Origin: an uncultured Bacteroidales bacterium
GTDB taxonomy: Bacteria; Bacteroidota; Bacteroidia; Bacteroidales; UBA932
Reading direction: 5' to 3'
DNA: 64,000 bases
Assembly: GCA_945870315.1 (NCBI GenBank)
Contig: CAMBRR010000004.1
Span: 1 to 64,000, forward strand
Part shown: positions 7 through 58,154 of the stretch, piece by piece
How positions within the stretch are numbered: position 1 is the stretch's first letter
Layout: every line of letters begins with the position of its first letter
The notes under the pieces: generated by a model
Told to the model about the DNA's origin: nothing
The model's input: the letters and a program-made list of their open reading frames with translations, nothing else
Databases searched by the model: none
Made by a program: the position numbers and the translations under genes

Positions 7-3000
7 CTATTTAACCTTGCTGACGCCGATAAAGATTGAGCCATCATTCCACTCAACCTCGCTAAGGTCGCACTCCCCTGCCAATTCACGGGCCTCAACG
101 CTCGCAGCAAGAGTCTGACCTGTAATATGTTCTCCGAAACTTTCAAGAGAGAGTCTGATGTCGGAGAGATATGCTTCAGGAGCGAGGATGAGGACCTCGA
201 CCTTGTCTGTCACCTTAAGGTCACTATCCTTACGGACGTTCTGGATTCTGTTGATGAGCTCCCTGGCAATGCCTTCCAAACGAAGCTCCTCTGTGATGGT
301 CACATCCAGAGCAATGGTCAACGGGCCATCCGAAGCCACCAGCCAGCCTGGCATATCCTCGGAAGTTATCTCGTAATCACCCTTAGACAAGGAAACATCT
401 CCGGAAGGCAGATGCATCAGATATGGTGCACCCGACGCTTCTGAAGCCTCGATATTGCTGATATCCTGCTGTCCAAGGGTTCCGAAGGCTGCAGCAATTT
501 CCTTCATCTGCTTACCGTAAGCCTTACCCAGAGTCTTGAAATTCGGACGTATCTTCTTGGTAATGATTCCGGTAGTATCGTGAATGAACTCAACCTGCTT
601 GACATTTACCTCGGTGAGGATGATATTCTTCACAAGTTCGAACTGCTCCTTGACACTGTCATTAAGAACAGGTATCACGAGTCGTGAAAGCGGTTTGCGG
701 ACATTGATTCCGACTTTCTTTCGAAGGGCAAGCACCATAGATGAAGACTTCTGGGCCAGAACCATCCTCTCTTCGAGAGCCTTGTCCACCAGACTGTCAT
801 CACAAACAGGCATAGAGTGGAAGTGGACAGAATCTGCTCCCGGAACAAGGTCAAGCCAAAGCCTTTCGCTGTAGAATGGAGCTATCGGAGCACTTAGAAG
901 AGCAATGTCCTTAAGCACCTCATACAGAGTCTGATATGCAGAAAGCTTATCCTCAGCGATACCGGAACCCCACAAACGTTTCTTGTTCAGACGGACATAC
1001 CAGTTACTCAAATCTTCAATCACGAAATCCTGGATAAGACGTCCTGCAAGGGTTATGTCATAATCCTCATATGCAGCCACAACAGCCTTGACAAGAGAGT
1101 TGAGCCTGCTGATTATCCATTTGTCAAACTCAGGTCTTTCCGAATACGGAACAGCAGGAGAATTCACATCAAAGCCGTCGATATTGGCATATAGAGCAAA
1201 CATCGAGTAGCAGTTGTACAATGTGCTGAAGAATTTCCTGCGGACTTCGTCCACACCGGCTTCGTCAAAACGCAGATTGTCCCAAGGCTGGGAGCTAGTG
1301 AGCATATACCACCTGAGGGAATCCGGTCCGAATTTATCGAGTTCATAGAACGGATCTACTGCATTGCCAAGTCTCTTGGACATCTTGTCTCCATTCTTGT
1401 CAAGAACCAATCCATTGGAAATCACCCTCTTGAAAGCACACTTTCCGCTGACCATAGTGTTGATTGCGTGGAGTGTGTAGAACCATCCGCGAGTCTGATC
1501 AACTCCCTCTGCAATAAAATCGGCAGTACAGCCGAACTTATCACTGCCAAGGTTGCGAAGGCCCTCCTGGGCATAAGGCATTGCACCGGAATCGAACCAA
1601 ACATCGATAAGATCGGCCTCGCGTTTCATCTTCCTTCCGCTTTCCGAAACCAAGAAGATATTGTCCACATATGGCCTGTGGAGGTCAATCTTGTCATAAT
1701 TCACCTTTGACATATCCTCCGGATCAAATCCCTTGTCCCTCAACGGGTTGGAAGACATAAACCCTGCCTCCACAGCCTTGTCAATCTCGCTGTATAGTTC
1801 TTTCAGGCTGCCGATGCACTTGACCTCACGACCGTCCTCAGTCATCCACACCGGAAGCGGAGTACCCCAGTAACGGCTGCGGGAAAGGTTCCAGTCCTGG
1901 ATATTCTCAAGCCATTTTCCGAAACGGCCCGTTCCGGTGGACTCCGGTTTCCAGATGATGGTATCATTCAGTTCCATCATTTTTTCACGAACCGCTGTGG
2001 TCCTGATAAACCAGGAGTTCAGAGGATAGTACAAAACAGGCTTGTCTGTCCTCCAGCAGTGAGGATATGTATGGGTATGTTTTTCAATCTTGAAGGCCTT
2101 GCCCTGCTGCTTGAGCATCACACAGATGTCCACATCAAGTGTAGGAGCATCCTCGGCCAGGTCGGGATCATAGGCATTTTTAACCCATCTTCCAGCCCAC
2201 TCTGAATATGAAGGATCCACATTGGCAGCCACATAATCAGCGTCCAGATCTTCGAGACGGTAGAAACGGCCCTTAAGGTCCACCTGAGCCTGAGAATTTC
2301 CGTCCTTGTCCACCACCATAAGAGCAGGCACACCGGCAGCCTTGGCAACTTTGGCATCGTCGGCACCGAAGGTTGGAGCGATATGAACTATTCCGGTACC
2401 ATCCTCCACGGTCACATAGTCGCCCGGAATTACCCTGAATGCTCCCTCTCCCGGATTGAACCAAGGAATGAGCTGATGATAAGAAATCCCGACAAGTTCG
2501 GACCCTTTGAACACTCCGTCAAGTACCCTGTACGGCACCAGCTTGTCGCCCGGAGTATAATCCGCAAAAGACACATCCTTGGCTTTCGGATTGAACAACG
2601 AGCCAACCAAAGCTTTGGCTACCACATAGATACACGGATCTCCAGTATATGGATTGAAAGAGGCCACCCTCACATATTCGATATTTGGGCCGACACACAA
2701 GGCAGTGTTGGAAGGCAGTGTCCACGGAGTCGTGGTCCAGGCAAGGAAAAACACCGGAAGAGTCTCACAACCATAAAGCAACTGCGACTTCTCATTCTTG
2801 ATGACCTCGAACTGGACAGTTGCAGTAGTATCTTTCACGTCCCTATAACACCCAGGCTGATTGAGTTCGTGAGTACTCAGCCCCGTACCGGCTGCCGGGC
2901 TGTATGGCTGGATGGACTTGCCCTTGTAGAGGTAACCCTTTTCATATATCTTCTTAAGCAACCACCAAAGCGTCTCGATATAGCGGTTGTCATAGGTGAT

Positions 3001-3444
3001 GTATGGATCATCCATATCCACCCAGTAGCCAATCCTCTCTGTAAGGTTGCGCCACTCGGCAGTATATTTCATCACCTCCTCACGGCAGGTACGGTTATAT
3101 TCCTCCACGCTTATCTTACGGCCTATGTCTTCCTTTGTAATGCCAAGCTTCTTCTCCACGCCCAACTCCACTGGAAGACCATGAGTATCCCATCCTGCAC
3201 GTCTGTTGACCTTGTAGCCGCTCTGAGTTTTGTAACGGCAGATGGCATCCTTGATGGAACGGGCCATCACGTGATGGATGCCCGGCATACCATTGGCTGA
3301 AGGCGGTCCTTCAAAAAACACAAATTCAGGAGCTCCTTCCCTCAGTTTGAGAGACTGCTCAAAAGCTCCGTTCTTTTTCCAGCGGTCAAGTACCTCGTTT
3401 CCTATCCCAACGAGATCAAGACCTTTATATTCCCTAAATGCCAT
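7..3444 (-). CDS. ileS: Isoleucyl-tRNA synthetase
   Basis: Class Ia aminoacyl-tRNA synthetase that charges tRNA-Ile in the cytoplasm. The 1145-residue protein carries the HIGH-type signature as GIHH around residues 55-58 and the KMSKR loop (GDKMSKRLGN) near residue 687. Between them lies a long editing (CP1) region with TTPWTLPSN and the GTGIVHIAP motif. After them come the anticodon-binding helices. The length matches the long form of the enzyme usual in Bacteroidota. The ATG at 3444 is followed directly by the conserved N-terminus and no upstream in-frame alternative is needed. The gene is divergent from cvpA, and a possible minus-strand promoter lies in the roughly 100 bp between them. The stop codon lies only 6 bp from the window edge, so its downstream neighbour is not visible. 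The identification is secure from motif order and length. Confidence 0.98.
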   Translation of the reverse strand: MAFREYKGLDLVGIGNEVLDRWKKNGAFEQSLKLREGAPEFVFFEGPPSANGMPGIHHVMARSIKDAICRYKTQSGYKVNRRAGWDTHGLPVELGVEKKLGITKEDIGRKISVEEYNRTCREEVMKYTAEWRNLTERIGYWVDMDDPYITYDNRYIETLWWLLKKIYEKGYLYKGKSIQPYSPAAGTGLSTHELNQPGCYRDVKDTTATVQFEVIKNEKSQLLYGCETLPVFFLAWTTTPWTLPSNTALCVGPNIEYVRVASFNPYTGDPCIYVVAKALVGSLFNPKAKDVSFADYTPGDKLVPYRVLDGVFKGSELVGISYHQLIPWFNPGEGAFRVIPGDYVTVEDGTGIVHIAPTFGADDAKVAKAAGVPALMVVDKDGNSQAQVDLKGRFYRLEDLDADYVAANVDPSYSEWAGRWVKNAYDPDLAEDAPTLDVDICVMLKQQGKAFKIEKHTHTYPHCWRTDKPVLYYPLNSWFIRTTAVREKMMELNDTIIWKPESTGTGRFGKWLENIQDWNLSRSRYWGTPLPVWMTEDGREVKCIGSLKELYSEIDKAVEAGFMSSNPLRDKGFDPEDMSKVNYDKIDLHRPYVDNIFLVSESGRKMKREADLIDVWFDSGAMPYAQEGLRNLGSDKFGCTADFIAEGVDQTRGWFYTLHAINTMVSGKCAFKRVISNGLVLDKNGDKMSKRLGNAVDPFYELDKFGPDSLRWYMLTSSQPWDNLRFDEAGVDEVRRKFFSTLYNCYSMFALYANIDGFDVNSPAVPYSERPEFDKWIISRLNSLVKAVVAAYEDYDITLAGRLIQDFVIEDLSNWYVRLNKKRLWGSGIAEDKLSAYQTLYEVLKDIALLSAPIAPFYSERLWLDLVPGADSVHFHSMPVCDDSLVDKALEERMVLAQKSSSMVLALRKKVGINVRKPLSRLVIPVLNDSVKEQFELVKNIILTEVNVKQVEFIHDTTGIITKKIRPNFKTLGKAYGKQMKEIAAAFGTLGQQDISNIEASEASGAPYLMHLPSGDVSLSKGDYEITSEDMPGWLVASDGPLTIALDVTITEELRLEGIARELINRIQNVRKDSDLKVTDKVEVLILAPEAYLSDIRLSLESFGEHITGQTLAASVEARELAGECDLSEVEWNDGSIFIGVSKVK

Positions 3445-3503
3445 AAAATAAAAATAATTGTCTATTTTTGCACCCTGTTGCAGGATGCGGAATTATTAAA
3501 CTG

Positions 3504-3534
3504 CAAATATAAATATTTTTGCTAACAATACAGA
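3504..3534 (-). promoter_or_regulatory. Candidate Bacteroidales promoter for ileS
   Basis: Read on the minus strand, TATATTTG (3511-3504) matches the Bacteroidales -7 element TAnnTTTG. It is preceded after 19 nt by TCTG (3534-3531), a three-of-four match to the -33 TTTG. Two plus-strand TATTTTTG boxes (3463-3470 and 3514-3521) could serve cvpA but lack a clear -33 partner. The assignment is by pattern only. Confidence 0.45.
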
Positions 3535-3549
3535 AGTATAGAGCCACAA

Positions 3550-4053
3550 ATGTATATCTTGGACGCCATAATCGGTATTTGTTTCGCCTGGTTTACTATT
3601 GACGGTATCCGGAAAGGATTCGTATCTCAGGCTATGGCAATCATTGGTCTTATTGCCGGAGTGTGGGCATCCTTCAAATTTGCAAGCCTTGTCTCTAGCT
3701 GGCTCTCGGGATATATTCAGGGATCGGAGCAAATACTCAGGCTTGTGGCCTTCGTACTGATATTCATTGCAGTCATCACCCTGATAACCGTTATCGGGAA
3801 ATTGATTGAAGTTACGTTGAAATTCGTGCTGCTGGGCTGGCTGAACAAAACTCTCGGTGCCATTTTTGCCTTTCTGAAATGTGCCCTGATTGTGTCCCTT
3901 ATAGTGATGGCCTTCCATTCCCTCAACGCAACATTCAACTTTGTATCTACAGAAAAACTCTCAGAATCAATATTTTATACCCCTTTGAAAAATATGGCCT
4001 TCTCCGTTTTCCCATATCTGAAAGACCTGTTGTTCTGGGGAAAACAGTCATAA
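3550..4053 (+). CDS. cvpA: CvpA family inner-membrane protein
   Basis: A 167-residue protein with four predicted hydrophobic membrane segments. The N-terminus, MYILDAIIGICFAWFTIDGI followed by RKGF, is the characteristic start of the CvpA family, which was named for a requirement in colicin V production in E. coli. Its molecular function in Bacteroidota is not established. The gene starts a two-gene plus-strand unit with tsaB. Its stop codon lies inside an exact 16-bp tandem duplication that also creates a possible tsaB start. The length is normal for the family, and the C-terminus after the last hydrophobic segment is short. The call rests on the N-terminal pattern and topology. Confidence 0.85.
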   Translation: MYILDAIIGICFAWFTIDGIRKGFVSQAMAIIGLIAGVWASFKFASLVSSWLSGYIQGSEQILRLVAFVLIFIAVITLITVIGKLIEVTLKFVLLGWLNKTLGAIFAFLKCALIVSLIVMAFHSLNATFNFVSTEKLSESIFYTPLKNMAFSVFPYLKDLLFWGKQS

Positions 4054-4070
4054 TGGAAAACAGTCATAAT
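4039..4070 (+). repeat. 16-bp perfect tandem duplication at the cvpA/tsaB junction
   Basis: GGAAAACAGTCATAAT occurs twice back to back (4039-4054 and 4055-4070). The first copy contains the cvpA stop codon. The second copy ends directly before the ATG at 4071. Removing one copy leaves the CvpA sequence unchanged. Confidence 0.95.
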
Positions 4071-4751
4071 ATGGAACGAATAATCCTGATAGAAACATCC
4101 ACTTCCCTTCTGTCAACCGCCCTCGTGGAGGATGGGAAGGTGATATCATACAAAGAAAGCAGTGCGGAAAAGGCGCACGCAAGCCTGACTGCCGTTTTCA
4201 TCAATGAGATGCTGGAAGAAAACGGGCTATCGATGAAAGGTTGCGATGCTGTCTGCGTGAGTGAAGGTCCCGGTTCATATACCGGTCTGAGGGTTGGAGT
4301 TTCCACTGCCAAGGGACTTTGCTTCGGCTCCGGAAAGCCACTCATCGCCGTAGGAACCCTCGACACCCTTGTGGCTCAGGTTGAGAATCCGGGCGAATAC
4401 GACTGGATTGTGCCTATGATAGATGCCAGAAGGATGGAGGTTTATTCAGCCATCTTCCGCCCAGACGGGACAAGGTTGACTGATGTGGAGCCTGTCATCG
4501 TGGATAAGGACAGTTTCTCGGAATACCTCTCGAAAGGCAAGGTGCTCTTCATCGGAGACGGAGCCGAAAAATGCAAAGGTACAATCACCAGCGAAAATGC
4601 CACCTTCCTGCAATGCCATCCTAAGGCCAGTTCAATGTTAAAACCGGCCCTGGAGCAATTTCACCAAGGCCGGTTCAAAGATGTCGCATATTTCGAGCCT
4701 TTCTACCTGAAGGAGTTTGTGGCCACCGTCAGCAAAAAGAAACTCTTCTGA
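4053..4751 (+). CDS. tsaB: tRNA threonylcarbamoyladenosine biosynthesis protein TsaB
   Basis: TsaB is the inactive ASKHA-fold partner of TsaD, needed for N6-threonylcarbamoyladenosine (t6A37) in ANN-decoding tRNAs. The protein begins IILIETSTSLLSTAL and continues with SEGPGSYTGLRVGVSTAKG, the family hallmark. The listed ORF extends upstream to 3879, but that part overlaps cvpA and reads as CvpA shadow. Two starts are plausible. The ATG at 4053 overlaps the cvpA TAA (TAATG) and gives 232 residues. The ATG at 4071 gives 226 residues beginning MERIILIETS, which fits the family better, because the extra six residues come from the 16-bp duplication. The gene is probably translated together with cvpA and converges on the thioredoxin-like lipoprotein gene. 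Confidence 0.93.
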   Translation: MENSHNMERIILIETSTSLLSTALVEDGKVISYKESSAEKAHASLTAVFINEMLEENGLSMKGCDAVCVSEGPGSYTGLRVGVSTAKGLCFGSGKPLIAVGTLDTLVAQVENPGEYDWIVPMIDARRMEVYSAIFRPDGTRLTDVEPVIVDKDSFSEYLSKGKVLFIGDGAEKCKGTITSENATFLQCHPKASSMLKPALEQFHQGRFKDVAYFEPFYLKEFVATVSKKKLF

Positions 4752-4793
4752 CGCCAAATCGATTCAGGTAAAGTGACGCCAAATCGATTCAGG
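4749..4793 (+). repeat. 20-bp direct repeat just after tsaB
   Basis: TGACGCCAAATCGATTCAGG occurs at 4749-4768, where its first three bases are the tsaB stop codon, and again at 4774-4793. The period is 25 bp. It sits between the convergent tsaB and thioredoxin-like genes. I see no obvious hairpin in it. Confidence 0.95.
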
Positions 4794-4825
4794 CAGGTGC
4801 GGCTCAACTCTATTTGATAAGGGAT

Positions 4826-5965
4826 CTATTTGAGAAGAGACTCCAACAGTTTGTCAAGAGACTTCGAGTCCACAATCTTGCCGTCCACCAAAGATCCATC
4901 CTTCAGGATGAACATTGCAGGAAGGTCCTGCAGGTTGTAAAGTCCTACATATGGGGACTGTATGCCTCTGGAATCACATACATTGGTCCACGGGAGTTGC
5001 TGTTTCTTCAGCACTGATGCCCAGGCAGCCTTGTCAACGTCGAGTGAAACCTGATAGATGTCGAATCCTCTTGAATGGTACTTATCATACAAAGGTTTGA
5101 GGACATCCAGGTTGAACATCTTCTGCTCGGCCTGAGATGAAGACCAGAACTGGATGAGGACAACCTTTGAATCAAGGTCAGAAAGTTTCACCTTTTCTCC
5201 CTCAATTGAAGGGAGTTCTATGTCAGGATAGTTTATCTGGTCAGCGTTTTTGAGCCTATTGTCCAATTCCATATAGTCACGGCGGGTTTCAGCCTCTTTC
5301 CTGAGGGCCTTCACATATTTGGAGTCCGGATAAACACTTGAGAGCGAATCACATACAGACTGAAAATGAATAGCGTCAGTCACTTGGCCGAACACCGGAA
5401 GGTTTTCATCAAGATTCTGGAACAGGACAGGCACACAAGTGAGCGAATGACTGTTTTCCATCACATATCTGACGCAGGTCCGGTAATAATCCACATACTC
5501 CCTGGTCATCTGCTGTCTGATGGCTGGCTGCTCGGAAGCAGGAGCCGAGGCATATTCAGCTGACAAAGCCCTCAATCTGGCTGTCACCTGGCTTTGGGAA
5601 CGCTCCAGTTGGGAGAGTTTCTCGCTTTCCTCAGAACCGGTCACTGAGTAATTGCCTAAGGTATCAGCCTTGACTTCCACCTTGTCCCCGGCTTCCAGAA
5701 GCAGGGATGCAACCTTGACGTCACCGTAGAAAAGATAAACGAACTCAGGCTGACCTTTCTGGACAGAAACCTTGCAGGATAATTTTCCTGCATCATCGGT
5801 CCTGACTGTGTCAAGCACCTGGTATCTATTGATATCCAGCAACTTGACTATGATATCCTTCTGGGGAGCCTGCTCAAGGACGGCATTGATTGTCGCTTTC
5901 CGGGAGCAGGAAACTGCTGCTGTCAAAAACAGGGCACAGAGCAGGAATCTGGATAATCTTGTCAT
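4826..5965 (-). CDS. TlpA/thioredoxin-like lipoprotein with DUF4369 domain, CxxC lost
   Basis: A 379-residue predicted lipoprotein. The ATG at 5965 gives a signal peptide ending in a lipobox (TAAVSC). The listed upstream extension to 6007 would run into the HIT gene and is rejected. Residues of about 25-115 resemble DUF4369, the beta-rich N-terminal domain of many Bacteroidota thiol-disulfide proteins. A helical linker follows, then a C-terminal thioredoxin/AhpC-TSA fold (DLDSKVVLIQFW...DIYQVSLD...LPAMFILKDG with the cis-Pro loop). Where the family has WCxxC, this protein reads WSSSQAEQK, with both cysteines replaced, so ordinary disulfide exchange is not possible. It is last in the minus-strand run ribF-greA-HIT, five bases after the HIT stop. 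It may act in the cell envelope as a binding or scaffold protein. Confidence 0.85.
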   Translation of the reverse strand: MTRLSRFLLCALFLTAAVSCSRKATINAVLEQAPQKDIIVKLLDINRYQVLDTVRTDDAGKLSCKVSVQKGQPEFVYLFYGDVKVASLLLEAGDKVEVKADTLGNYSVTGSEESEKLSQLERSQSQVTARLRALSAEYASAPASEQPAIRQQMTREYVDYYRTCVRYVMENSHSLTCVPVLFQNLDENLPVFGQVTDAIHFQSVCDSLSSVYPDSKYVKALRKEAETRRDYMELDNRLKNADQINYPDIELPSIEGEKVKLSDLDSKVVLIQFWSSSQAEQKMFNLDVLKPLYDKYHSRGFDIYQVSLDVDKAAWASVLKKQQLPWTNVCDSRGIQSPYVGLYNLQDLPAMFILKDGSLVDGKIVDSKSLDKLLESLLK

Positions 5966-5969
5966 TTTT

Positions 5970-6374
5970 CTAAAGTTTGATGAATTCATTATAAATGGCC
6001 TGTGCAACCTCAGCCATTTCTTCAGGAGGAAGCTGGAGCTTAGGTTTGCGGAAATCCATATCGGCTTCGCAGTTCAGAGGAACAAGATGGATGTGAGTAT
6101 GAGGAACCTCCATTCCAAGTACGGCAACGCCTACCCTCTTGCAAGGAACTGCCTTTTCAAGAGCTTTGGCAACCTTGCGCGCAAAGGCACACAAGCCCAT
6201 ATAAGTCTGCTCGTCCAAATTGAAGATATAGTCATTTTCTACCTTCCTCGGGATGCAGAGTACGTGTCCTTTAGTTAGCGGAGCGATATCAAGAAAGGCA
6301 TAGAAATCCTCTGTCTCGGCAACTTTCCAGGACGGGATCTCTCCGTTTGCAATCTTTGTAAAAATTGTAGCCAT
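5970..6374 (-). CDS. HIT family nucleotide hydrolase/transferase
   Basis: A 134-residue histidine-triad protein of the HINT branch, cytoplasmic, predicted to hydrolyse nucleoside phosphoramidates or related AMP conjugates. The N-terminus IFTKIANGEIPSWKVAE is typical, and the catalytic triad reads HTHIHLVPL (HxHxH) near residue 92. The C-terminus is somewhat longer than in E. coli HinT. It lies four bases after greA and just ahead of the thioredoxin-like lipoprotein gene, so the three are probably cotranscribed. Physiological substrates of bacterial HIT proteins are mostly unknown. Confidence 0.95.
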   Translation of the reverse strand: MATIFTKIANGEIPSWKVAETEDFYAFLDIAPLTKGHVLCIPRKVENDYIFNLDEQTYMGLCAFARKVAKALEKAVPCKRVGVAVLGMEVPHTHIHLVPLNCEADMDFRKPKLQLPPEEMAEVAQAIYNEFIKL

Positions 6375-6377
6375 AGC

Positions 6378-6845
6378 CTAAAGGGTAATGTCCAGAATTT
6401 CGAATTTGATAATGCCTGCAGGAACCCTGGCCTCAACGATTTCTCCTACTGAGTGACCGAGAAGAGCCTGACCTATAGGAGTTTTCACTGCCAATTTACC
6501 TGCGGTGAAGTCAGCCTCGCTCTCTCCCACCAAAGTAAAGTTCATAATCTGACCTGTAGTAAGATTCTTTACCTTGACCTTATTGAGCATCTGAACCTTA
6601 TCGGTTCCAATCTGTGTTTCGTCTATTACCCTGGCATTGGCTACCAGATTCTGGAGCTTGGAAATGTTCAGTTCCAGCAGGCCCTGAGCCTCTCTGGCTG
6701 ACTCATATTCCGCATTTTCAGAAAGGTCACCCTTGTCACGAGCCTCAGCAATCTGAGCAGAGATCACCGGACGCTGGGCAATCGCATCCGCCAATTCCTT
6801 TTTCAGCTTATCCAAGCCTTCCTGTGTCATATAATGTACTTCCAT
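6378..6845 (-). CDS. greA: Transcription elongation factor GreA
   Basis: GreA rescues backtracked RNA polymerase by stimulating cleavage of the nascent transcript through the secondary channel. The 155-residue protein has an N-terminal coiled coil carrying the conserved acidic tip GDLSENAEYESAREAQ around residues 40-55. A C-terminal FKBP-like domain includes TPIGQALLGHSVGE. Length and domain order are normal. The first residues MEVHYMTQEGLDKLKKEL match Bacteroidota GreA. The gene lies 15 bp after ribF and four bases before the HIT gene. Confidence 0.97.
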   Translation of the reverse strand: MEVHYMTQEGLDKLKKELADAIAQRPVISAQIAEARDKGDLSENAEYESAREAQGLLELNISKLQNLVANARVIDETQIGTDKVQMLNKVKVKNLTTGQIMNFTLVGESEADFTAGKLAVKTPIGQALLGHSVGEIVEARVPAGIIKFEILDITL

Positions 6846-50473: not shown

Positions 50474-53014
50474 ATGAAGCATTTGCGTAATATATTCCCA
50501 ATCACTGCCATTATCCTCGGACTGGTTTCCTGCGCCGATCTGGATTCCCTTGAGAATTCCATTTCCTCTCTGGAAAACAGGGTGAAGGCCCTCGAAGAGA
50601 CCGTCGGTACGATAAATGACAACATCATTGCAATCCAGGCCCTCCTCGGTGAAGAGACAAGAATCGTTGGATTCGAACAGACGGAAGGAGGCTATACCCT
50701 TTCACTGAGCAACGGGACCTCAGTCAATGTAATTTTCGGTGACAAGGTCAGCGGAATCGTTCCGATTGTAGGTATCAGCGAAGACGGTAAATGGATAATG
50801 TCCATTGACGGCGGACAAACATTTACTGAAATTAAAAAAGCCGGTCCTGTCTATGGAGAAGGCGGCATTACCCCTGTTGTTGGAATTGATAAAGATGGTT
50901 ATTGGACAATCAGTTACAATGGTGGTAGCGACTTCAGCCAGATTCTCGGAGAAGACGGAAAACCAATCAGCGCAGTTGACGCAGGCGCAGTTGCTGGCTT
51001 GGTGTCTTTCTTCAAAAATGCAGTTTATGACCAGTCAAATGAGACAATGGTCTTCACCCTGCTGAATGACGAGACCTTCTCCGTTCCGGTAGTGAACAAC
51101 TTCTACCTGAAACTTGAGGCCTACCAGGCGCCCTATTCCGTATGTTTGGACCAGGAGGTCATCTTCAAGGCAACTGTCTCCGATGTTGCAGATGCAGTTA
51201 TCCGTACTCCTGAAGGCTGGTCTGCCACTCTTACCGACGGCAGCCTGACAGTCCACACTCCGGCAACAGGCACAGAAGGAATCTACACTGTGGAAATCAT
51301 CCTGGTTTCAGGCAATGGACTGCTCAAGAGGGTTCCTCTTGAGTTCTCACTTAAGGCTGTCCGATATTCCGATACCTATTGTAAGGAATATAAGGACTAC
51401 CTTGCAGGAAATGAAGCCAACTTGCTTCTTGACTTTTCCTATGCCGGCTACAACCACGGCGAGTCAGCCCCTCTTGAGGCTTCGGCATTCGGCTACACAG
51501 TGTTCAATGTAATGGACTACGGGGCAATCCCAGATGACGGACTTTCCGACAGGGAAGCCTTCCTCAAATGCCTGAAAGCCGCGTTAAGCGTTAACTACAG
51601 TGTAAATAAGAACAATATCATCACCTTCGACAGCAATGACAAAGCCAACGCCATTGTCTATTTCCCTGAAGGTGAATTCATTCTGCATACCGCTGAAGAT
51701 GATGTCCCGCTCGAAGGCAAGAGCCCGAGCCAGACAATACAGATTCGCTCCGGCAACTTCATCCTCAAGGGAGCTGGACGGGACAAGACAACCATAGTGA
51801 TGCAGGCCCCTGCTCAGCCTACCGACCCGTCCATCCTATACAGTTCGCCAGCAATGATTGAACTCAAACACAATAGCGGCCTTTCCGCCCTGACAGCAGT
51901 GACCGCCAATGCAGCCAAGGGGGCATATTCGGTTCAGGTAGCTTCCACCAGCGATCTTAAAGTCGGAGGCTGGGTTTGTCTTTCCACAGTAAACAACGAC
52001 CCGGACTATGTAAAGGCCGAACTCCAGGCCGGCAACCCTACCGCCACAGAGATGGCAAATATGAAAAATATCTCCAATGTAGGAGTACAAGTCTATGATT
52101 ATCATCAGATTAAAGCAATCAGCGGCAACACTGTAACCTTTGTTGAACCGATTATGCACGAAGTTGACCTAAGCTATGAAGTATCTACTGATTCAGGATG
52201 TTACAACTGGCAGATTATGAAATATCCTCACTACGAGAATGTGGGAGTGGAGGATATGACATTCAAGGGGTTCTGCAAAGACAATTTCGTTCACCACGGC
52301 AGCTGGGAGGATGACGGAGCATACAAACCTATCAATATGACGAGAATTGTCAACTCCTGGATGAGAAGAGTTGGATTCGAGAGTGTCAGCGAAGCTTGTT
52401 CCCTTACCAATTGTGCCAATATCTCCGTCTATGACGTGACATTCAGCGGCAAAAGAGGACACTCTGCAATCCGTGCACAGGTTTCCTCAAGAGTATTCAT
52501 CGGAGCAACGGTTGACAAGGCATCCGGTTATCTGATTGACAGCCCAGACACCTATAGGGAAGAAGCCGGGCAGTACCATGCTGTGGGAGTTTCCAAGCAA
52601 AGTATGGGTACCGTCCTGTGGAGAAACACCTGGGGCAACGACAGCTGCTTCGAGTCCCACGCTACCCAACCACGAGCAACATTGATTGACTGCTGCACAG
52701 GCGGTTGGATGAGGTGGCGCCAGGGCGGCGACGAGATTCAGGTCCCTAACCACCTTGCAGATCTGACCATATGGAACTTCGAATCAGTCACTCCATCTTC
52801 AGAAACCTTCATCTGGTGGGATCACAGCAGCAGGTGGTGGAAATTCCTGCCTCCAATCATCGTGGGTTTCCACGGAGAGCCAACATCTTTTGATTTGTCA
52901 CAAGTGGCAGTTGACAGCAACAACGGCGTGATTGTGGCTCCTGAATCCTTGTATGAAGCCCAGTTGAGGGAAAGGCTAGGTTTCGTCCCTTCTTGGTTGA
53001 TATCATTGAAATAA
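50474..53014 (+). CDS. DUF4988 / right-handed beta-helix / DUF4955 lipoprotein, candidate surface lyase (PL29-like)
   Basis: An 846-residue predicted lipoprotein (signal ending LGLVSC). Residues of about 20-60 form a heptad coiled coil (LDSLENSISSLENRVKALEE). It is followed by two WxxSIDGG/WTISYNGG beta repeats of DUF4988 to about residue 200 and an Ig-like part. From about 344 (VFNVMDYGAIPDDGLSDREAF) a pectate-lyase-3-type beta-helix begins. The C-terminal third, ENVGVEDMTFKGFCKDNFVHH through GFHGEPTSF, resembles DUF4955. The chondroitin locus of B. thetaiotaomicron includes a surface endo-lyase founding PL29 (BT_3328). By position, anchoring and size this gene is a good functional candidate, but I cannot confirm homology without a search. 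Confidence 0.75.
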   Translation: MKHLRNIFPITAIILGLVSCADLDSLENSISSLENRVKALEETVGTINDNIIAIQALLGEETRIVGFEQTEGGYTLSLSNGTSVNVIFGDKVSGIVPIVGISEDGKWIMSIDGGQTFTEIKKAGPVYGEGGITPVVGIDKDGYWTISYNGGSDFSQILGEDGKPISAVDAGAVAGLVSFFKNAVYDQSNETMVFTLLNDETFSVPVVNNFYLKLEAYQAPYSVCLDQEVIFKATVSDVADAVIRTPEGWSATLTDGSLTVHTPATGTEGIYTVEIILVSGNGLLKRVPLEFSLKAVRYSDTYCKEYKDYLAGNEANLLLDFSYAGYNHGESAPLEASAFGYTVFNVMDYGAIPDDGLSDREAFLKCLKAALSVNYSVNKNNIITFDSNDKANAIVYFPEGEFILHTAEDDVPLEGKSPSQTIQIRSGNFILKGAGRDKTTIVMQAPAQPTDPSILYSSPAMIELKHNSGLSALTAVTANAAKGAYSVQVASTSDLKVGGWVCLSTVNNDPDYVKAELQAGNPTATEMANMKNISNVGVQVYDYHQIKAISGNTVTFVEPIMHEVDLSYEVSTDSGCYNWQIMKYPHYENVGVEDMTFKGFCKDNFVHHGSWEDDGAYKPINMTRIVNSWMRRVGFESVSEACSLTNCANISVYDVTFSGKRGHSAIRAQVSSRVFIGATVDKASGYLIDSPDTYREEAGQYHAVGVSKQSMGTVLWRNTWGNDSCFESHATQPRATLIDCCTGGWMRWRQGGDEIQVPNHLADLTIWNFESVTPSSETFIWWDHSSRWWKFLPPIIVGFHGEPTSFDLSQVAVDSNNGVIVAPESLYEAQLRERLGFVPSWLISLK

Positions 53015-53057: not shown

Positions 53058-55292
53058 ATGAAAAGAATATCTAAAATCTTCTTCAGCATTGTTTCAGCCC
53101 TTGTATTTGCTATCGGCTGCAGCGAGGTTGACAAACTGTCTGAAAGGGTTGAATCTCTCGAAGGACGAGTAACTGCCCTGGAGACTCTCACCTCAACATT
53201 GAATGACAACATTGTTGCCCTTCAAAAACTCGCTGGTGGAAGCACCATCAACAACGTAGCACTGAAGGATGGAGTCTATACCATTACTTTAAGCAACGGT
53301 GAAACTCTTACTATCAACCAGGGTGCAGTGGGAGTTGCCAACGCCCCTATTATGTCCATCGACAGCAAAGGATATTGGATGGTTGACTATGGCAAGGGTG
53401 CCGAGTACATTCTGGTTGGCGGGGAAAAAGTAAAGGCTGTAGGAAGCAACGGCGTAACTCCTAAATTCAGCGTTGATAAGGAAGGCTATTGGACAGTAAG
53501 TTACGACGGAGGCACCACATATGCCCGCGTTAAGGACGAGGCAGGAAATCCTGTAAAGGCAGTCGTGGACGGCTCTTCCGCACAGGATTCATTCTTCGAT
53601 GACGTCAAATATGAGAACGGGGTTCTGACCATCGTGCCGAAAGGAGGCGAGCCTCTTGTGGTACCAGTCATCTCGTCCTTCCTCTGCGCAGTCAAGGATG
53701 CAGCAGACGTACAGGTATTCTCATACGGCCAGACAAGGACCTACAATGTGGAGCAGAAAGGTGTAGCCTCTGCCATTGTTACCGCTCCTGAGGGCTGGAC
53801 AGCAATACTGACCGACACTCAGCTCTCCATCACAGCCCCAGCTGGAACCAAGGCAACCATTGCCGATTCATCCACCGATGTCAGCATCCTGGCCATTTCT
53901 ACCCAGGGCCTTGCCACAGTTGCCAAGGTGCGCGTAATGGTCGAAGGAGGCACAGTTGTAGTAAATCCTTCTGCTACAGTCACTTTCACTTCAGCTGACG
54001 CAAGTTCCGCAACCTTTGAGGTAAGTGTTTCTGATGTAACAGGATGGAAATACATCTGCCAGGCTGCTTCAGAGCCAGCTCCTTCTGCAGAAACTTTGGC
54101 AGCAAGCGGCACCGAAAGCACTACTGGTACAGTTGTAGTTGAAGGCCTTGCCGCAGAAACTGAATACGTTCTCTATGTACTTCCATACAACGGCGAAACT
54201 CTCGGAGCCATTGCTTCCGCTACCGGCAAGACTACCGCAGCCACTGTTGTTGACTATCCTGGACTTTATGGCAAATATATGAAGGGAGAAGACGTTGTCA
54301 TCTGCGGAGTCCCCATCAACAAGACCACCCATCCTGATGCCAACTACATCAGTGCGGAGAGTGAAGACAAGACCATCAAGGCAGGCGTAAACTTTGTCGC
54401 TCCAGATGCAAATGCGCTCTTCTCTACTGTAGAGTTGCCGATGCCTCTGTATGTAGCTGGAAACACCGAAGGGACTAGAAGCCCTATCAAGACCGATGGC
54501 CAGATTAAACTTGCTTCTGCTACTGACACTCAGAACACTTTTGCAATGGAGAACGTTGATTTGACTGCGGAGAATATCACAACTAACTATTTGATTGCCA
54601 ATTGGTATGACTTTGCCATTGAGAAGATTTCTATTGCGAACTGTGGCATTACCCTTCCGGACAACAAAAGTCTCATATATGTGAATAAGGACAGACCGGT
54701 GAATGCATTCTCAATGACTGATTCGGATGTCAAAGTATCACAGACCGATGCCAGCAAGAATATCAATATGATTCAGACTACTGAAACATACACAATGACC
54801 GAGGTCAACTTCACCAACAACGTCTTCTGGTCTCCTGCTGATGTGAAAGGCTTCAATCTCCTTCTCAATAGGAAGGTAACTGCAGCCAACCTCACAGTCA
54901 GCCACAATACCCTTGTAAATCTCTACCCCGCAGCATCATATGCATTCTGCCAGGTTAATGATATGACTGCCGGTAACATCTCCAACAATTTGTTCTACCT
55001 TGTCAACTACACAGCATCTGCAAATGATACTTATACGGGAATTGTCAGGGAAATGGATGGTGCTTGTCCAGATGAATTGTATGAAACATTCGTGAAGAAC
55101 TATGCGATCTACGGTGACAGCGTTCCTACAAAGAAGATGAAGGTTGGACAGAACTCTAACATTGGTCAGATTTTCAACAAGAAGAAGGTTGACTCTGCTG
55201 AAATATTTGATTATGAAGACGGTTCTGCAAACTTCGACCTTGTAAACGGCATCTTCAAACCAAAGAACGCCTCCTACGGCGCTCAGCGCTAA
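53058..55292 (+). CDS. DUF4988 / FN3-like / beta-helix lipoprotein, probable surface glycan-binding protein
   Basis: A 744-residue predicted lipoprotein (signal ending FAIGC). Its N-terminus is a close paralogue of the upstream protein: coiled coil VDKLSERVESLEGRVTALET, then GYWMVDYGKGAEYI and GYWTVSYDGGTTYARV repeats. An Ig-like region is followed by an FN3-like domain at about 303-400 (ATVTFTSADASSATFEVSV...AAETEYVLYVLPYNG). A C-terminal beta-helix of the DUF4957/DUF5123 kind follows, with imperfect rungs such as ANLTVSHNTLVNLYP and AGNISNNLFYLVN. No catalytic motif is apparent. It ends the plus-strand PUL arm and is followed by a strong terminator. A glycan-binding or presenting role is inferred. 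Confidence 0.8.
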   Translation: MKRISKIFFSIVSALVFAIGCSEVDKLSERVESLEGRVTALETLTSTLNDNIVALQKLAGGSTINNVALKDGVYTITLSNGETLTINQGAVGVANAPIMSIDSKGYWMVDYGKGAEYILVGGEKVKAVGSNGVTPKFSVDKEGYWTVSYDGGTTYARVKDEAGNPVKAVVDGSSAQDSFFDDVKYENGVLTIVPKGGEPLVVPVISSFLCAVKDAADVQVFSYGQTRTYNVEQKGVASAIVTAPEGWTAILTDTQLSITAPAGTKATIADSSTDVSILAISTQGLATVAKVRVMVEGGTVVVNPSATVTFTSADASSATFEVSVSDVTGWKYICQAASEPAPSAETLAASGTESTTGTVVVEGLAAETEYVLYVLPYNGETLGAIASATGKTTAATVVDYPGLYGKYMKGEDVVICGVPINKTTHPDANYISAESEDKTIKAGVNFVAPDANALFSTVELPMPLYVAGNTEGTRSPIKTDGQIKLASATDTQNTFAMENVDLTAENITTNYLIANWYDFAIEKISIANCGITLPDNKSLIYVNKDRPVNAFSMTDSDVKVSQTDASKNINMIQTTETYTMTEVNFTNNVFWSPADVKGFNLLLNRKVTAANLTVSHNTLVNLYPAASYAFCQVNDMTAGNISNNLFYLVNYTASANDTYTGIVREMDGACPDELYETFVKNYAIYGDSVPTKKMKVGQNSNIGQIFNKKKVDSAEIFDYEDGSANFDLVNGIFKPKNASYGAQR

Positions 55293-55655: not shown

Positions 55656-57911
55656 TTATTTTACCCAATATTTGGTGTCGTACGATGCACCTGTTGCGTT
55701 CTTGATATTTGAACTGTTTACAGGGAAATATCCTTTATTTATGTCAACAGTAGTGAATGGATAGTTTTGGTTCGTACCGTTTTCTTGCTTGGAATTTTTA
55801 GTTGTATAATCAGGAGAATCATATACGGTGGTACCGTTTACTTTCTTTGATTTTCTGTATTTCCATTTAACTGTATTGCCGGATAGAGTAGAAGTAGAAG
55901 TTATATACGTGCTCTGTTCTGCCGTATGGTATCCATATGAATAGTTATTATCAATACTATAAGTCCCGTTATTAGGATTATCAATACCAGAGTAAATACC
56001 AAACATATAACTTGCCGTAAATGGATATTTATCAGTCGCGGTTGATGCAAATGATGAATAATCAATATAAACGACATTCCCATCAACCTCCGCAGACTTA
56101 CAATAATACGCTCTAGCAAGAACATTTCCATTAGTATTGATGTTATAGAGGGTGTTATTGCTTACTACAATCTTAGCATTCTCAAGAGGGAAATCAAGCT
56201 GTCCCCCTGATGCGCCACTTCCCAAATCCATAAGCATTCGCCTTGACAGTGCATTATTAGTATTTGAATATGGTTGCTCTGCATAAATAACACAGTTCGA
56301 AATTTCAAACTTTTCAATATTCTTATATATGGAACTGTCAGTCTCTGGTTTTTCAAGCTTGTTAATATTGATTACAACATAATTAGCATCAGTACCAGCC
56401 AGTTTTATGATACAGTTAATAAAAGACAGATTCTTTATCACAGAAGTCGGAGTACCTGAGGAATATCCACATACATTTTTAGGGGCAGTAATACTACAAT
56501 CTTCAACAACAGCATAGTCAGAAGTGGAAGCAGACGAGCTACTCATTACTAACAGACGACCGGCAGTGCTTGTTCCTCCAATGTTGAGATTTTTGAGAAT
56601 AATGTTACCATTGTCGAGATAAATAGCATGATTAGAAGTCATCGAAATAGAAGGTTGTTTATCCTTATATCTTCCAATTATGATTGTGCCTTTAACTAAT
56701 TTGAGATGCGCTGTTGAAGTCCAATTACCGTCAACGAAAATCAATCCACCTTTTTCCAGATTAGTTTTGGTTACTTGGTCGCCTGAAAGAAGAGTAGCAT
56801 TAGAGTATTTGCTTTTATTGATGGTAAGTCCACCAGCGGCGATATCCTGACCTGCATTGTATATGCTCCAATAGTCATTAGGGTCAGCAGTATCTTCCAC
56901 AGCGTAGCCATCGCCTGTAATATTGATTTTAAGGTCGTTGATGATTCCGGCCTGGAGTTGCATATCACTTGGAAGAGCAATCTTTCTGGTCACCTTTTTG
57001 TTCTTGCTTTGCGCAACCACAGTAAGTTCTGTGTCTTTAGCTTTTTCAACAGGCATTGTCACATACCATACCGTGTATTTGCCGTCTGTTCCTGCAGCAA
57101 GGCCTTCCGCATATTCGGCAGTTACGCTAGCGCTCGCATGCACGGAGCCCCAATCGCCATATCCTGAGACTCCTGCGTTGCTGAAGGTTTCGTCAAAGTT
57201 GAGATAGCACAAGTTGATGAGGTTGTTTTTCTTATGATTCAAACCGCTTACTTTGTTATCTTTAGCAGCGGGGAAGCCGATGGATACTTTTTGCAGGGGT
57301 TCACCGCCGAGAACTTTTTTTTCGTCGCTGAGGGTTACTCGCACGAGGGCGAATAGCCTCTTGAGTTTGAGGTTCTCTGCCGTTATCTCTGTCGCCTGAG
57401 CTTCAGCATTGTAAATGGGCTTGCCCATAATGTAGTCCTGCAGAGGGTCGAAGGACGTGGCGGTAGGATGCTGGATGGAGTCAAGTTTGACATATGGCCC
57501 GGTCTTGGTGCTGTTTGTACTGATGTTTTTGGTGTCACGGTATGGAAGAATGAAATAATAGTTGTATCCTGTGGCACCTGATATGGCATTATGGCTGAAG
57601 GTGTAATTGCTGTTTCCATCGCTTGTGCCTTTGATAATGCCTGCAACAACAGGCTTTCCATCCACGTATTTGCTCTCATCAGCATTGGAATATGCAACCG
57701 CAAGCTCCTCAGCGCCTGTGAGTTTCACAGACTTGTCGTCGGTATCGAAGAAAGATTTCACAGTTGCATCGTCTGACGCAGGGGCAACTTCTGCTGCAAG
57801 GGATACTTTGCGTGTGATGAGATCTTCTTGACCTTGTTCAGTGGATAGTTCTGCTTTTTTGCATCCTGCTATGGCGAGGATGGAGGCCGCAATAATCAAT
57901 GTCTTTTTCAT
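55656..57911 (-). CDS. Fimbrillin-like / beta-helix hybrid lipoprotein
   Basis: A 751-residue predicted lipoprotein. The ATG at 57911 gives MKKTLIIAASILAIAGC. The listed start at 57947 would overlap the small upstream ORF and is rejected. Residues of about 25-330 look like a fimbrillin/Mfa-type double beta-sandwich (YNYYFILPYRD, LKLKRLFALVRVTLSDEKKV, KYTVWYVTMPVEKAKDTELTV, AGIINDLKINI). From about 350 a right-handed beta-helix runs to the C-terminus (NAIYLDNGNIILKNLNIGG-type rungs, VVSNNTLYNINTNGNVL, GYFPVNSSNIKNATGASYD), similar in kind to DUF4957/DUF5123 proteins. The second part is visibly richer in A/T than the first. It is convergent with the glycosaminoglycan locus. A surface adhesin or glycan-presenting role is inferred. 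Confidence 0.78.
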   Translation of the reverse strand: MKKTLIIAASILAIAGCKKAELSTEQGQEDLITRKVSLAAEVAPASDDATVKSFFDTDDKSVKLTGAEELAVAYSNADESKYVDGKPVVAGIIKGTSDGNSNYTFSHNAISGATGYNYYFILPYRDTKNISTNSTKTGPYVKLDSIQHPTATSFDPLQDYIMGKPIYNAEAQATEITAENLKLKRLFALVRVTLSDEKKVLGGEPLQKVSIGFPAAKDNKVSGLNHKKNNLINLCYLNFDETFSNAGVSGYGDWGSVHASASVTAEYAEGLAAGTDGKYTVWYVTMPVEKAKDTELTVVAQSKNKKVTRKIALPSDMQLQAGIINDLKINITGDGYAVEDTADPNDYWSIYNAGQDIAAGGLTINKSKYSNATLLSGDQVTKTNLEKGGLIFVDGNWTSTAHLKLVKGTIIIGRYKDKQPSISMTSNHAIYLDNGNIILKNLNIGGTSTAGRLLVMSSSSASTSDYAVVEDCSITAPKNVCGYSSGTPTSVIKNLSFINCIIKLAGTDANYVVININKLEKPETDSSIYKNIEKFEISNCVIYAEQPYSNTNNALSRRMLMDLGSGASGGQLDFPLENAKIVVSNNTLYNINTNGNVLARAYYCKSAEVDGNVVYIDYSSFASTATDKYPFTASYMFGIYSGIDNPNNGTYSIDNNYSYGYHTAEQSTYITSTSTLSGNTVKWKYRKSKKVNGTTVYDSPDYTTKNSKQENGTNQNYPFTTVDINKGYFPVNSSNIKNATGASYDTKYWVK

Positions 57912-57912
57912 A

Positions 57913-58077
57913 CTACAGTTCCTTACCAAAAACATCATAAGTTTCATTAATAGTAAAATTGTCCAAATCGCTCCAAGTTGACCCTGTCAGAATAAAAGAA
58001 TCAGCTGTCAAAGAGATGATGACACAGGTTGGAGACTTATATTCTGCCCCACCCTGAATTAATTTATTGTTTCTCAT
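57913..58077 (-). CDS. Small 54-residue ORF with Y-x-x-P...TGS pattern, coupled to the fimbrillin-like gene
   Basis: Absent from the ORF track because it is under 60 codons. The ATG is at 58077 and the TAG at 57915-57913. The protein begins MRNNKLIQGGAEYKSPTCVI and continues ISLTADSFILTGSTWSDLDN before an acidic end. The layout (YxxP, a hydrophobic beta-like stretch, then a small polar T/S-G-S turn and an acidic tail) resembles the very common but largely unannotated Bacteroidales small peptides of the form YxxPxxxVxxxxxxxxLxxSG. The stop is one base before the ATG of the lipoprotein gene, and a promoter candidate lies about 50 bp upstream. Both facts favour a real, coupled gene. Function is unknown. 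Confidence 0.65.
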   Translation of the reverse strand: MRNNKLIQGGAEYKSPTCVIISLTADSFILTGSTWSDLDNFTINETYDVFGKEL

Positions 58078-58124: not shown

Positions 58125-58154
58125 CAAAGATAGTAATTAATTTCAACAGACAAT
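58125..58154 (-). promoter_or_regulatory. Candidate promoter for the small ORF and fimbrillin-like gene
   Basis: On the minus strand ATTG (58154-58151), 18 nt, then TATCTTTG (58132-58125). The predicted start site near 58117 leaves about 40 nt before the small ORF ATG. Confidence 0.55.

Follow-up and report, generated by a model that had tools for sequence, protein, structure and literature searches.

Linear polyphosphorylated peptides (LPPs), products of the lpp cluster of Paenibacillus alginolyticus (PMC13381572, Nat Commun 2026), are the described system that lies closest to the genes considered here. In LPP biosynthesis a kinase phosphorylates a core serine several times and an RRE presents the leader to a peptidase (PMC13381572); LPPs are called restricted to Bacillota by the authors, who give their biological role as unknown (PMC13381572). 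The lasso peptides provide a second point of reference, since lasso-type RREs recognize their leaders by a YxxP motif (PMC12710340).

The locus that we study lies in a 64,000-nucleotide stretch of DNA from an uncultured Bacteroidales bacterium (contig CAMBRR010000004.1, positions 1 to 64,000; hereafter the window) and is made up of a gene for a 54-residue peptide and, directly after it, a gene for a lipoprotein (Table 1). We consider it likely that the peptide is an LPP-like RiPP precursor and that a single set of enzymes acts on many precursor/adhesin pairs scattered over the genome.

The Bacteroidales system has in common with LPPs a discrete RRE, an HprK-like kinase, a putative SpI/S26-type leader peptidase and an MsbA-like exporter, with an NTP transferase match in some loci, as well as the lack of a B2 peptidase and of any cyclase that could be seen. 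Both have a YxxP leader and, close to where leader and core meet, a Ser (at Y+18 in LPP and mostly at Y+19 in Bacteroidales), and RRE residues N33 and D70 are kept. The two differ in host, Bacillota versus Bacteroidales, in the HQxIxFET part of the LPP leader, which is absent from the Bacteroidales leader, and in the number of precursors, 1-3 within the cluster as against 1-20 dispersed over each genome in the window's genus. Moreover, Bacteroidales precursors are each paired with a fimbrillin-like lipoprotein and come with putative G-tract switches, and the NTP transferase often goes undetected. Taken as a whole the LPP leader consensus, YxxPxVLxHQxIxFETxxS, does not describe the Bacteroidales leader, with YxxP, E and Ser common to both in similar register. 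In all genes that can be compared the system resembles an LPP pathway, but because the full consensus is lacking and the points concerning S26 and NTP_transf_5 are incomplete, we call it LPP-like and not a member of the LPPs.

Phosphorylated lasso peptides (paeninodin, Bsf; PMC10368454) show the same logic of RRE, HprK-like kinase, nucleotidyltransferase and exporter, and a YxxP (or WxxP) leader (PMC10368454), but the Bacteroidales set is without B2 peptidase, without a cyclase in the clusters read and without lasso core features. The combination of a peptide-lipoprotein pair with RRE and kinase is not mentioned in a survey of Bacteroidales RiPPs (PMC10352776), and a search of open-access full text found no described substrate of the RRE/kinase/peptidase cluster of the genus.

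The peptide gene and its family

The ORF encodes MRNNKLIQGGAEYKSPTCVIISLTADSFILTGSTWSDLDNFTINETYDVFGKEL (54 aa, the stop being included in the span of Table 1). Its TAG (57915-57913) ends one base ahead of the lipoprotein ATG (57911-57909), and a Bacteroidales-type -7 box, TATCTTTG, is placed 55 nt upstream of its own ATG. The preliminary description of this DNA had pointed to both the spacing and a promoter candidate, and the latter gains weight from the family as a whole, with TAnnTTTG found in 26 of 79 upstream regions, where shuffled sequences give 4.4 and the opposite strand gives 6.

Table 1. Coordinates of features at the peptide-lipoprotein locus of the window.
Feature	Position	Strand	Basis
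YxxP precursor-like peptide gene, 54 aa	57913..58077	(-)	ORF, genus-wide family, ortholog L023
YKSP codons, predicted RRE-binding YxxP motif, leader aa 13-16	58030..58041	(-)	sequence, family alignment, literature (PMC13381572, PMC12710340)
Ser33 (Y+20), leader/core junction serine that may be modified	57979..57981	(-)	Ser position across 92 peptides
GGGTGGGG, interrupted G-rich stretch where six relatives have unbroken G7-G10	58047..58054	(-)	sequence
TATCTTTG, Bacteroidales-type -7 box of the peptide-lipoprotein transcript	58125..58132	(-)	motif enrichment across family
751-aa lipoprotein, fimbrillin-like N-terminal half and beta-helix-like C-terminal half; start codon 57909-57911	55656..57911	(-)	homologs, model

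That the gene is real, and more than a chance ORF, is confirmed by the same frame in an ortholog, by a genus-wide family and by dN/dS values that are mostly low. The ortholog L023 retains the frame, a YESP motif and the 1-nt spacing, and its lipoprotein is 47% identical. In L022, the closest ortholog (57%), the leader frame is broken within a G9 tract; since the remaining frame and the 1-nt spacing are intact we read this as phase variation, not decay. Conservation of the frame in close relatives, whose absence had earlier been named as refuting, is seen in L023 and, outside the G9 tract, in L022. The Ka/Ks comparison proposed alongside it came out in favor of the gene, pairwise dN/dS being 0.18-0.58 where computable with a single exception of 1.7 that rests on 8 substitutions.

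In order to find relatives a first profile was built from 21 peptides drawn from regions upstream of lipoprotein homologs. In profile searches (E<=1) 110 of the 120 near-complete genomes examined from the window's genus contain the family, at 1-20 copies per genome, and the earlier assignment of this peptide to a broad YxxP class was correct; nine matches were obtained with a larger profile in the genome from which the window derives (G000, referred to below as the own genome). Single-sequence searches with the 54-mer returned only itself or noise, and most weak matches are due to chance, L004 and L006 being true relatives among them. The peptide has no model in Pfam or NCBIfam, its profile found no match in the PDB, and the window gave no match in Rfam and tRNA scans. 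Five of the nine own-genome peptide loci (contigs C1, C12, C23, C51 and C62) lie at most ~1.3 kb from a contig end, which might reflect assembly breaks caused by repeats or by population variation close to the pairs.

The family leader reads YxxP..E.[VIL]..[VIL]..E..[IFLV][CAL].S and is followed by a variable acidic core. In an alignment of 92 peptides in the tyrosine register the leader is gapless over ~20 residues and gives way to an acidic tail that varies; YxxP was a selection criterion, so that its 100% presence holds by construction. The remainder of the leader (E+13, [IFLV]+16, [CLA]+17, Ser+18..20) was no criterion, save for what the profile search favors. Counted from Y, E+13 occurs in 76% of the peptides, [IFLV]+16 in 99%, C/L/A at +17 in 97% and Ser+19 in 68%. 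A Ser falls within Y+16..22 in 89/92, in most cases at Y+18..20, and the core contains 25% D/E and 2% K/R. By analogy with Ser3 of LppA, Ser33 of the window peptide may be the residue that is modified.

The paired lipoprotein and the G tracts

The true start of the lipoprotein gene is at 57911, where a lipobox signal, MKKTLIIAASILAIAGC, begins. The start of the longer ORF, 57947, had already been suspected to be wrong and is indeed not the gene start, because alignments with homologs begin at 57911. No model for the protein exists in Pfam or NCBIfam. In a predicted structure of modest confidence (mean pLDDT 66) the N-terminal half resembles solved Bacteroides fimbrial and cell-adhesion proteins (best E 9e-7), with Mfa2 also among the matches, and has the fold of the FimA/Mfa fimbrillin superfamily (PF13149; PDB 3ufi, 3sy6, 4h40, 5nfi); pectate-lyase-like beta-helix proteins are matched more weakly.

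The pairing that had been noted at this one locus proves to be systematic, with a fimbrillin-like lipoprotein gene directly after the peptide in 78 of 80 fetched loci (76 by an automatic lipobox rule and 2 by eye; the exceptions are L139 and L143). The gap between the two genes is -4 to 37 nt in 74 of 76 measured pairs, and the pair in the window is probably translationally coupled. Mfa_like_1 (PF13149), which we had expected to mark peptide-linked lipoproteins, was dropped as a marker: it is reached by only 9 of 67 partner N-termini, and no YxxP peptide accompanies those Mfa_like_1 fimbrillins that score best in these genomes. DUF4988 beta-helix lipoproteins, including two in the window (50474-53014 and 53058-55292), are likewise found without a peptide, which indicates that the peptide does not go with the beta-helix half; it goes with the fimbrillin-like half. 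The two window genes form a tandem of DUF4988-type lipoproteins with beta-helix-like parts that are related to the C-terminal half of the 751-aa protein.

Copies in and out of frame at a G tract are what slipped-strand phase variation usually leaves behind. A tract of G8 or longer followed within 21 nt by Y-E-[SA]-P codons was found at 5 loci in 250 genomes, and the reversed control pattern at 0. With L101 (G7) there are six peptide genes that carry a G7-G10 tract between start codon and YxxP, all six directly preceding a lipoprotein. YxxP is in frame with the upstream ATG in L360, L361 and L362 and out of frame in L101, L363 and L364, where the reading frame would be opened if the tract changed by one base. 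The pattern suggests slipped-strand phase variation, with homopolymer assembly error a possible source of such differences. At the same place the window peptide gene has the interrupted tract GGGTGGGG and is in frame.

It might be supposed that translation of so small an ORF merely couples or attenuates expression of the lipoprotein and that its product is functionless. Such a leader ORF acting in cis would fit the single base that separates stop codon and ATG in the window, L022 and L023, the short gaps (a few to 20 nt) of most other loci, and the frame-changing 5' G tracts of six loci, which would make an apt translational switch. We nevertheless regard it as improbable. The leader is conserved at the amino-acid level with dN/dS below 1, the gaps vary widely, and, as described in the following section, peptides also occur inside the RRE/kinase cluster and their abundance tracks an RRE and a kinase that act in trans.

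The RRE, the kinase and their clusters

The predicted structure of the own-genome RRE (pLDDT 86.5) matches best TbiB1 with bound lasso leader (TM 0.77), and also TfuB1, again leader-bound; sequence matches of the RRE profile include TfuB1 and LppB (PDB 9x8z). N33 and D70 of LppB are required for holding the YxxP leader (PMC13381572), and the columns aligned to them are Asn and Asp in 73/73 Bacteroidales RREs from kinase loci.

An RRE most like lasso B1 proteins, together with a YxxP leader, could be taken to indicate the precursor of a classical lasso peptide with a cyclised core. We dropped this candidate as exceedingly unlikely: the lasso leader peptidase (B2, PF13471) is absent from the own genome and 27/28 others, no cyclase is seen in the clusters read, and a conserved leader Thr(-2), core Gly1 or Asp/Glu at 7-9 is not found. 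A lasso-like cluster, judged by eye, does occur in the same genus (L173, G013:C1:482000-495000, at 2613-6573), with an asparagine-synthetase-like protein, an HprK-like protein, a sulfotransferase-like protein and an RRE in a row and a PF13471 match nearby at G013:C1:494687-495040; the sulfotransferase in such a cluster looks unusual.

Within the genus the link between peptides and enzymes takes the form of co-occurrence, as most precursors there are far from the enzymes. A stand-alone PqqD-type RRE is present in 108 of 120 genomes. Mean peptide matches are 7.0 with and 0.9 without it (Mann-Whitney p=7.7e-7, shared ancestry uncorrected), and at least three matches are seen in 88/108 RRE genomes versus 1/12 RRE-less ones (again uncorrected for shared ancestry). 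Of the 12 RRE-less genomes 11 lack the kinase as well; the one that has it, G120, is also the only one of them with several clear peptides. Most RRE-less genomes retain Mfa_like_1 fimbrillins, as many as 17, and those in the arrays that were read (G124 and G182) are not preceded by a family-like peptide. Exceptions occur in several directions: G092 and G371 have a peptide with RRE and kinase absent, G032 has 20 peptide matches and an RRE with no kinase match, and G013, G030, G222 and G257 have RRE and kinase with no peptide match. In an order-wide sample the RRE is found in 17/18 peptide-bearing genomes compared with 137/218 overall (Fisher p=0.002).

The RRE of the genus usually adjoins an HprK-like kinase, an S26-type peptidase and an MsbA-like exporter, with NTP_transf_5 in a minority. 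The own-genome RRE lies at a contig edge (G000:C3), and the own-genome kinase (E 8.4e-89) adjoins an exporter on G000:C11; an S26 peptidase was not found beside the kinase there. The HprK-like kinase (A7) has an invariant H145, GTGKST at 163-168 and DD at 185-186, in keeping with the pattern H...GxxGxGKS...DD. Among 80 named kinase loci, all of them Bacteroidales-type records, the counts are 78 for S26, 73 for the RRE, 53 for the exporter, 16 for NTP_transf_5 (with a four-sequence profile) and 12 for a YxxP peptide. Several of these loci bear the name Candidatus Cryptobacteroides, from which we take the probable name of the genus. NTP_transf_5 is a PF14907 match in L177. The S26-type protein has SMxP, HR and GDxN boxes, and the single copy scanned gave no Pfam match.

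In other Bacteroidales families the YxxP peptide is found inside the enzyme cluster itself (L240, L241, L242 and L243). The order is peptide, kinase, peptidase, RRE, NTP_transf_5, exporter in L240 and peptide, lipoprotein, kinase, peptidase, RRE, exporter in L241. The clearest case is L344, from a Bacteroides MAG, where kinase, peptidase, RRE, NTP_transf_5, exporter, peptide and fimbrillin-like lipoprotein are colinear with short gaps; L329 is a further co-localisation. In L249/L135 (G215:C43) an RRE of another kind immediately precedes a YxxP peptide and fimbrillin-like lipoprotein, with a G10 tract in the intergenic region ahead of the peptide. Kinase, S26 peptidase and RRE are also together in L351, from the named, non-MAG strain Paraprevotella xylaniphila YIT 11841, a possible tractable host with no YxxP peptide within 6 kb.

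These results bear on the suggestion that the peptide is a dedicated chaperone or secretion partner of the lipoprotein, for which the near-universal pairing with fimbrillin-like lipoproteins could be cited. The L240 peptide directly precedes the kinase with no lipoprotein alongside, however, the peptide is absent from the Mfa_like_1 fimbrillins of most RRE-less genomes, classical fimbrillins in RRE-positive genomes are also without it, and the YxxP leader and RRE association would be left unexplained, so that we give this role very little credence. A chaperone or regulatory peptide, suggested in the preliminary description, is not supported as the main reading: peptides track an RRE/kinase pathway in trans and sit inside its cluster elsewhere, and Mfa_like_1 fimbrillins persist without peptide in most pathway-less genomes.

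Proposed pathway and its meaning

The scheme that we propose for an LPP-like precursor builds on a gene family with its anatomy and selection, the pairing, the enzyme co-occurrence and co-localisation, and an RRE in which the YxxP-binding residues are kept; its predicted steps would be binding of the leader, phosphorylation, cleavage and export, with a putative effect on the lipoprotein. The basic, YxxP-containing N-terminal ~30 residues would serve as leader. A stand-alone PqqD-type RRE, encoded elsewhere in the genome, would bind this leader and hand the peptide to the HprK-like kinase, which would phosphorylate the serine at the leader/core junction. The S26-type peptidase would then cut off the leader, and the MsbA-like exporter would take the acidic core out of the cytoplasm. 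In the genus a single enzyme set would suffice for many dispersed precursors, each co-transcribed with a fimbrillin-like lipoprotein, and on account of this arrangement the core peptide probably acts as partner or ligand of its lipoprotein, or decorates it. A signalling role, also raised earlier, may apply in the sense of an exported peptide.

A bolder version, which we put forward tentatively and would sooner doubt than assume, is that one pathway modifies a hypervariable set of up to ~20 peptides per genome, that every peptide is bound by its own fimbrillin-like protein or displayed together with it, and that G tracts switch some of the pairs on and off. If true, each cell would have a phase-variable repertoire of modified-peptide/adhesin pairs. 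By the LPP-like reading, tiny Bacteroidales ORFs missed by gene callers and the RRE/kinase/peptidase cluster of the genus are given a testable function, and gut Bacteroidales a large unannotated set of candidate modified peptides. The occurrence of LPP-type core genes in these bacteria beside adhesin-like genes offers a lead to a role at the cell surface.
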